From Campylobacterota bacterium (GTDB lineage Bacteria; Campylobacterota; Campylobacteria; Campylobacterales; Sulfurimonadaceae), in assembly GCA_023379705.1 (NCBI GenBank), contig JAMCPS010000178.1:1-32188 (forward strand): a stretch of 32,188 nt of DNA. Reading direction: 5' to 3'. The notes under the pieces are model-generated. The model did no database searches. It had not been told where the DNA came from and worked only from the letters and a program-made list of their open reading frames with translations. Shown here in pieces: positions 16,449-17,810 of the stretch (position 1 is its first letter; the number at the start of each line of letters is the position of its first letter). A program made the position numbers and the translations under genes.

Positions 16449-16982
16449 TTAATTATGGATAAAAAAGGGTACATCAGGGGTTATGGAGCTGCCTATTTTT
16501 GCCAATTCATCGGTAGTGAGTATGAGATTACATACCTCTTTAACTAAACCTATAAAGGCTGCCGCATCCGACGAGCTTCCGCCAAAACCGGCTGAGGGGG
16601 CAATACGTTTGGTTACTACTACCTTATGGGTAGAAAAATAGTCTAGAATATCTGAATCATTGGTAAAGTCGTTGAGGACTAGGTAGGCTTGGTAAATGGT
16701 GTTGGATTCCAAGGGGATATCATCACATCCCTCAAGGGTAAAACTTTCACATTTACAGGATACAAAGCTGATCGTATCGTACAATTCTTCTACGCGTATC
16801 CAACCGGAGAGACTTTTTACTCTTGCGTGGGCTTTGATACTGTATCCTGTATCTGTTTTCTCTATGTTGGAGTTTTTTCCAGTCGTATTCTTTGATGTAT
16901 GGTCATTTTGTTGATCCATCGAAGCAGGAAGAGTATCAATATCCCAATATCCACCCTCATCTCCACCGGCAAAACCACCCAT
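16449..16982 (-). pseudogene. Truncated, degraded ispE-like GHMP kinase fragment with an unrelated N-terminal head
   Basis: Residues ~48-177 resemble the first half of IspE (4-diphosphocytidyl-2-C-methylerythritol kinase): YSIKAHARV, then EELYDTISF, SNTIYQAY, PSAGFGGSSSDAAAF (GHMP phosphate loop) and IGSSITPDVPFFI. The ORF stops right after this block, so the whole C-terminal GHMP half is missing. About 20 residues of the usual NLFLK...GYH segment are also gone. The catalytic Lys in AK(V/L)N appears as Arg (HARVKS), and the phosphate loop GLGGGSS reads GFGGSSS. Residues 1-46 (MGGFAGGDEGGYWDIDTLPA...) are not IspE and I do not recognise them. I infer a non-functional remnant; a real ispE is expected elsewhere. 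The ATG has AGGA ~9 nt upstream, so it may still be translated after nfu. Confidence 0.65.
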
Positions 16983-17006: not shown

Positions 17007-17285
17007 TTAAATGACGTAAACTCTTATATTATTCGTTTCAAGCTGTCCATTCAAGATTCTTTGGATGGATGCGAGAGTTCCCCCTGAACTTTCACACGAT
17101 CCGCAAGCCCCTACATAGGAGATATAAATATCCGTTAATCCATTTGTTTCTTTAAGCTCAATAAAATCCAAATCTCCGCCATCTGCTTGCAGATATGCTC
17201 TAATTTTATCATCTATAATTTTATCAATAGCATTTATTTTTTGAACAATGCTCATACTATCAAATTCAATTTCAGTGTTTTCCAT
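17007..17285 (-). CDS. Short NifU C-terminal-domain (Nfu-type) iron-sulfur protein
   Basis: The 92-aa protein corresponds to the Nfu domain that binds a labile Fe-S cluster through a CxxC pair and passes it to apo-proteins. Seen directly: IVQKINAIDKIIDDKIRAYLQADGGDLDFIEL and VGACGSCESSGGTLASIQRIL with CxxC at ~61-64. The INAIDKIIDDKIR lead-in is more like the C-terminal part of full-length NifU of this phylum than a classic stand-alone Nfu. The loop after CxxC seems one residue shorter than usual. It may therefore be a free-standing paralogue or a duplicated NifU end. The ATG is preceded by GGGGA at ~9 nt and by a TATAAT. The ispE-like remnant follows on the same strand. Confidence 0.75.
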   Translation of the reverse strand: MENTEIEFDSMSIVQKINAIDKIIDDKIRAYLQADGGDLDFIELKETNGLTDIYISYVGACGSCESSGGTLASIQRILNGQLETNNIRVYVI

Positions 17286-17336
17286 AATAATATCCCCATT
17301 TTTTAAATTTATTGTGTCTAAATTCTTATTTCAAAA

Positions 17337-17342
17337 ATTATA
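17337..17342 (-). promoter_or_regulatory. Putative -10 box for the NifU-like gene
   Basis: TATAAT on the minus strand lies 51 bp before the ATG at 17285, giving a leader of ~45 nt. The 17286-17457 stretch is AT-rich; apart from this box I see no gene or repeat in it before the IS30 remnant. Confidence 0.4.
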
Positions 17343-17457
17343 CACTGTAAATATTTATCCTCACTATAGCAATGTTTATAGTCTAAAATGTTCAAGAATA
17401 TGTGATTATAGATGCTCTAATAACTCTTTTACAGCAGCTATGTCTTTGTCCAGTCGC

Positions 17458-17709
17458 CTATATAAATCGTGGCAGCGAGGACTTAACGAACACACCAATG
17501 GATTAATACGGGAATATATTCCGAAGAAGACAAAGTTTGAGACGATAAGTGATAAATTTATTGTAGACATACAAGAGAAACTAAACCATAGACCTCGAAA
17601 AATACTTGGCTATAAAACTCCGCATGAAGTGTTCTTTGCTAAAATTGCACAATGGATTGATGACTCGAAGCTACACTATAAAAATAACGTTGTTGCACTT
17701 GATTGTTGA
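17458..17709 (+). pseudogene. IS30-family transposase, C-terminal remnant
   Basis: The end of the 17248-17709 ORF reads YKSWQRGLNEHTNGLIREYIPKK, followed by IQEKLNHRPRKILGYKTPHEVF. This is the hallmark C-terminal part of IS30-family DDE transposases, including the catalytic Glu in the WQRGLNE block. Only about the last 82 codons remain; the upstream part of the ORF does not look like transposase, so the element lost its 5' three quarters. It ends in VALDC, a normal-looking terminus. It lies 26 bp from the 3' end of tRNA-Asn. No matching inverted-repeat pair or complete IS is visible, so it is immobile. Confidence 0.85.
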
Positions 17710-17735: not shown

Positions 17736-17810
17736 TGGCTCCGGATACTGGATTCGAACCAGTGACCAAGTGATTAACAGTCACCTACTCTACCGCTGAG
17801 CTAATCCGGA
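17736..17810 (-). tRNA. tRNA-Asn(GTT)
   Basis: The minus strand folds as a full cloverleaf. The 7-bp acceptor stem is TCCGGAT/ATCCGGA, the D-arm contains TAGCTCAGCGGTAGAG, and the anticodon loop CTGTTAAT has GTT. The T-arm is CTGGTTCGAATCCAG, and the discriminator G plus CCA is encoded. A perfect-consensus promoter sits upstream and an IS30 remnant lies just downstream of the 3' end. Confidence 0.98.

Follow-up and report, generated by a model that had tools for sequence, protein, structure and literature searches.

Pseudoenzymes are common. The described proteins that come closest in proposed role to the one studied here, XOL-1 and Gal3p, are eukaryotic and full-size. Both are relatives of the GHMP kinases and work without kinase activity (PMC11349215). 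Closest in sequence are the kinase IspE (4-diphosphocytidyl-2-C-methyl-D-erythritol kinase; PRK04181/TIGR00154; PDB 2v2q, 1oj4), in which Asp141 and Lys10 touch the methylerythritol group (PMC11541488), and a tagged form of this enzyme found in Sulfurovum (L005, L006, L008, G560, and others). We analyzed a 32,188-nucleotide stretch of DNA from a Campylobacterota bacterium of the Sulfurimonadaceae, here called the window, which contains an open reading frame (ORF) related to these proteins. Its residues 59–176 resemble the N-terminal half of IspE and its model resembles 2v2q, but it lacks the catalytic lysine, the Tyr–His substrate segment, and the C-terminal domain, has an altered GHMP loop, and contains an added N-terminal tag. 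Like XOL-1 and Gal3p, its product is a GHMP-kinase relative with a proposed non-kinase role; unlike them, it is bacterial, about half the size of IspE or less, and carries a conserved tag. The tagged Sulfurovum proteins share both tag and core with it and are its nearest neighbors in the tree, but they are full length, keep the checked catalytic motifs, and occupy a uvrD–truB–ispE slot. A further likeness, to NifU-domain (Nfu-type) proteins, belongs to the product of the neighboring gene and not to the ORF itself. A literature search with incomplete coverage returned nothing specific on IspE pseudokinases in these genera.

The ORF (16449–16982, reverse strand) starts with ATG and comprises 177 codons with no internal stop, and an AGGA lies about 9 nt 5′ of the start, in line with the original prediction of an intact reading frame with a ribosome-binding site. 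Residues 94–176 match Pfam GHMP_kinases_N (E = 4.5e-10), and residues 59–176 match NCBIfam IspE PRK04181 (E = 1.3e-28; profile positions 27–144 of 257), with a score below the curated equivalog cut-off (100.5 versus 191 bits). The proposed likeness to the N-terminal half of IspE thus holds, except for residues 1–45, which form a conserved extension foreign to IspE. The IspE-derived core, residues 46–177 (16452–16847, reverse strand), has an internal deletion where the K10/N12/Y25/H26 segment used to be (E. coli IspE numbering). The catalytic Lys10 is replaced by Arg (HAKVN to HARVK) and the CDP-ME contact Asn12 by Lys, and the segment with the CDP-ME contacts Tyr25–His26 is missing. The glycine-rich ATP loop reads GFGGSSS instead of the GLGGGSS of intact IspE (AGLGGGSSD to AGFGGSSSD). 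Both the Arg and the altered loop had been recognized beforehand and are confirmed by the alignment; the internal gap is real as well, but its size, put at about 20 residues, amounts to 14 residues net relative to tagged full-length relatives. As also anticipated, the entire C-terminal GHMP domain with its GSGS motif is gone, and no remnant of it was found in the 420 bp downstream. The catalytic Asp141 is retained (TPDVPFF), while the copy in genome G005 has Lys at the same place. The ORF lacks all tested defining features of IspE kinases except Asp141. Since parts that bind ATP and the substrate are missing, we infer that its product is unable to act as a CDP-ME kinase.

The remaining core is nevertheless predicted to fold. 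In an AlphaFold2 model built from a 10-sequence alignment (mean pLDDT 76.8), predicted pLDDT is about 90 over most of residues 41–177, with blocks of 76–94, and the predicted strands 46–57 and 60–75 join at the deletion site. The best Foldseek match of the model is IspE 2v2q (E = 1.9e-7; TM-score 0.54 by query length). Residues 1–37 have predicted pLDDT below 50, and the tag is predicted to be disordered.

This tag (codons 1–16, MGGFAGGDEGGYWDID; 16935–16982, reverse strand) is a conserved feature that the original prediction did not see. Its pattern, MGGFxGGDEGGxWD, was detected in 23 of the 228 Sulfurimonadaceae genomes, while the reversed pattern, used as a control, has no match in the same set. 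Across the 23 copies this pattern is at least 90% identical, and no other stretch is as well conserved between full-length IspE and the shortest, 132-aa form. Third codon positions within it vary, which places the constraint at the protein level and rules out a DNA attachment site or an RNA element. The tag is shared with the nearest relatives of the ORF, the Sulfurovum-type IspE proteins, and its pattern is present in 20 of 78 Sulfurovum genomes.

A complete ispE was sought near truB and smpB, as had been suggested, and is present in the window genome (2.3 Mb, 99.9% complete, 7.9% contamination) in the order truB–ispE–smpB. The ORF is only 41% identical to it; its closest intact relatives are of the Sulfurovum type. 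A quick tree search of 86 proteins, in which many branches are unsupported, groups the tagged Sulfurimonadaceae copies in a single clade (SH-aLRT 88), except for the very long-branched G131 copy, which falls outside. Tagged Sulfurovum IspE is placed next to this clade, and the canonical IspE of the same Sulfurimonadaceae lies far away (100). All tagged Sulfurovum proteins that could be read completely are full length (293–308 aa) and contain GGGSSD and GSGS; in three of them only the exact KVNIFLK string is missing, owing to X letters or to an exchange of V for I. Most of these genes have truB upstream. The tagged IspE is native to the truB–ispE slot of some Sulfurovum and a second copy in Sulfurimonadaceae, and the ORF is a horizontally acquired xenologue of it. 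Contamination of the assembly was ruled out as its source, since the order hemE, radical SAM gene, tRNA-Asn, nfu, and tagged gene recurs identically in two other genomes of the genus. A search for a phage or plasmid origin gave no viral or phage match and a single plasmid match, a Sulfurovum replicon on which truB adjoins the matching sequence. PADLOC defense-system families had no match to the ORF and no convincing one to its partners.

Within the genus of the window, the short form is present in 4 of 41 species, and full ispE is found in all four. Because these four Sulfuricurvum-type carriers keep an ordinary ispE, the second copy is free of duty in the MEP pathway. Canonical ispE was found in most of the 23 tagged genomes; the search had no match in G203 (88% complete) or G204 (79% complete). 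In another member of the family, G190 (94% complete), the search recovered a single ispE, the tagged copy of Sulfurovum type (G190:C15:7674–8435), possibly a replacement of the native gene.

The ORF belongs to a graded series of reductions, a point that the first reading of the sequence missed. In the 23 Sulfurimonadaceae genomes, tagged copies range from full length through 166–177 aa to 132–144 aa. In the full-length second copies of G046, G132, and G190 the catalytic motifs that were checked are intact, and these proteins may have remained kinases, whereas those in G098, G051, G084, and G201 are eroded. Short copies of 166–177 aa occur in the window genome (G000), G031, G005, G032, and G101, and further reduced forms measure 164 aa (G211), 141–144 aa (nine genomes), and 132 aa (G131). 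None of the reduced copies has a broken reading frame. Their internal junctions differ between G000/G031, G005, G032, G101, G211, and the 141–144 aa clade, and the same catalytic segment was thus cut in frame more than once. The GHMP loop is further lost in G032 and G101 and deleted in the 141–144 aa forms. Loss of the C-terminus in G000, G031, and G032 looks like one old event, since the sequence just past the stop is common to these three; the ends of the other reduced lineages differ.

Selection on the short form was estimated from the G000 and G031 copies, which carry an identical internal deletion and must therefore have diverged after it. Between them, dS is 0.88 and dN 0.123, giving a dN/dS of 0.139 (bootstrap 95% 0.08–0.22), so selection continued after truncation; pairs of 141–144 aa forms give values of about 0.09–0.33. 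By homology, loss of residues, and dN/dS, the ORF qualifies at the sequence level as a pseudoenzyme, i.e., a homologue of an enzyme with its catalytic residues gone and under purifying selection. We therefore favor, with a probability of roughly 0.8, the reading that it encodes a functional, non-catalytic, repurposed IspE-derived protein and is not a dead gene. This supports the repurposed small protein offered as one of two options in the original prediction, as the short protein recurs in relatives and is under purifying selection there. In the Sulfurimonadaceae, the Sulfurovum-type tagged IspE is a second copy, usually beside a small NifU-domain gene. Its kinase-specific parts have been lost repeatedly by deletion in frame, with the tag and part of the fold kept by purifying selection.

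The neighboring gene, nfu (17007–17285, reverse strand), encodes a 92-aa protein that contains a NifU domain with a CxxC motif. It lies 24 bp upstream of the tagged ORF, whose start is 24 nt past the nfu stop, and the two are probably co-transcribed. In most fetched regions the tagged gene adjoins nfu, mostly on the same strand; the pair is divergent in G101 and convergent in G084. The cassette is adjoined by a tRNA-Asn(GTT) (17736–17810, reverse strand), an arrangement repeated in G031 and G032, and a remnant of an IS30-family transposase (17248–17709, forward strand; NCBIfam IS30 transposase E = 8.3e-18, below cut-off) lies between this tRNA and nfu. An IS30 transposase also adjoins nfu in G098 (L081). 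A common transposition for the two is unsupported, because blastn gave no nucleotide match. At four loci without the tagged gene (L164, L165, L166, L167), close nfu relatives are accompanied by hemerythrin, an LRV repeat protein, an FAD-NAD(P) disulfide reductase, and unnamed small proteins. No close homologue of the paired nfu was found in Sulfurovum, where matches were mostly to full-length NifU.

Two genes co-occur with the tag among the 228 Sulfurimonadaceae genomes. Close nfu homologues are present in 18 of 23 tagged and 4 of 205 untagged genomes (p = 1e-18), and a gene for a protein named here C in 19 and 5, respectively (p = 1e-19); without the nine-genome clade the values are about 5e-10 and 5e-11, all from Fisher tests that ignore shared ancestry. 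Protein C, which is often encoded beside the tagged gene, resembles XcbB/CpsF-type proteins (NCBIfam E = 8e-7, below cut-off). In G031, G032, G084, and G201 it is distant from the tagged gene or on another contig, so linkage alone does not explain the association. In Sulfurovum, protein C is found in 7 of 78 genomes, all seven among the 20 tagged ones (p = 3e-5; five of the seven are close relatives). It was not detectable in the window genome, G098, G101, or G211.

Protein C itself varies in size. Members of this CpsF-like hydrolase family (L079:5363–6076, reverse strand; L152:5428–5805, reverse strand; L279:1492–2148, forward strand) shrink from 237 to 123 aa. The GxSxG motif is kept in G005, G031, G032, G084, G156, and G582 and lost in G046, G597, G598, and the 123–129 aa forms. 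The nucleophile motif is dropped in genomes with the most-shrunken tagged IspE, a parallel erosion of two enzyme-derived proteins. In Sulfurovum, a 264-aa protein is encoded upstream of C (L279:614–1408, forward strand; equivalents in L280–L283); it weakly resembles the T7SS protein EssC (E = 6e-6), has no evident Walker A motif, and is a possible third pseudoenzyme of the module. In G131, adjacent genes of one cluster (L155:2569–5205) encode a zinc-ribbon thioredoxin, two unnamed small proteins, C, and the very divergent 132-aa tagged protein.

These associations point, tentatively, to an adaptor role, in which the tagged protein would dock onto a partner through its disordered tag and offer its core as a surface for binding. 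The Nfu-type protein and the eroded CpsF-like hydrolase would belong to the same module. Such a small-protein module of the tagged protein, the Nfu-type protein, and C might have a redox or Fe–S function. A broader version, which we regard as speculative to the same degree, is a module of co-occurring pseudoenzymes: the tagged IspE without kinase activity, the CpsF-like hydrolase without its nucleophile, and the Sulfurovum EssC/FtsK-like fragment without evident Walker A, together with the Nfu-type protein and thioredoxin. In this view, a short N-terminal tag would have served to recruit a core enzyme, which repeated deletions in frame would later have deprived of its catalytic activity, with all stages, from presumably active enzyme to 132-aa non-enzyme, found in living species.

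Alternatively, function could reside in the tag, for which the IspE remnant would be no more than a carrier or a platform for folding. The tag's standing as the best-conserved element at every length would fit this, as would the finding that in Sulfurovum, whose tagged IspE looks intact, only tagged genomes contain protein C. However, strong purifying selection acts on the core as well (dN/dS about 0.10–0.19; 0.10 between G000 and G031), which is hence not inert, and this explanation is rather unlikely. We consider it less probable still that the remnant regulates the MEP pathway by binding to canonical IspE or to CDP-ME, in a Gal3-like or prozyme-like manner. The ORF derives from IspE, all short forms of the window genus co-exist with canonical IspE, and there are precedents, both within the GHMP family (XOL-1 and Gal3p; PMC11349215) and in a dead paralogue that activates its own enzyme (PMC5201418). 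But the source IspE is foreign and shares only about 41% identity with the resident one, and the genes that accompany the ORF across genomes are nfu and the one for the CpsF-like protein rather than MEP genes. Regulation of canonical IspE is thus possible and less favored than the adaptor module.

A recent pseudogene, i.e., a truncated ispE duplicate or xenologue under neutral decay, was the other option of the original prediction and is now very improbable. Catalytic residues and the C-terminal domain are gone, a full ispE exists elsewhere in the genome, and the neighborhood contains an IS30 remnant and a tRNA, all of which decay could explain. However, the dN/dS check against relatives, named beforehand as the comparison bearing on decay, found the short form under purifying selection (0.14 over a dS of 0.88, after the deletion). 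Moreover, every reduced copy found has an open frame, tag and core are conserved, the fold is predicted to be intact, and no decayed C-terminal DNA is left. Finally, an accessory role in nitrogen fixation, suggested by the NifU domain of the neighbor and, in some genomes, by the presence of LRV, molybdate-transport-like, or hemerythrin genes close to nfu, is rejected as scarcely credible, as nifD is not associated with the tag (4 of 23 tagged versus 66 of 205 other genomes, p = 0.16, in the opposite direction) and was not found in the window genome.

To our knowledge, the stages by which an enzyme turns into a non-enzyme can rarely be observed. The related genomes analyzed here hold tagged proteins of full length whose motifs are intact, others of full length that are eroded, half-length forms, and forms of 132–144 aa. 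With this staged series and several in-frame removals of one catalytic segment, the question of whether there is a gain from losing catalysis becomes testable. The tag and its statistical partners, the Nfu-type protein and the eroded CpsF-like protein, would represent an uncharacterized small-protein system of sulfur-oxidizing Campylobacterota.
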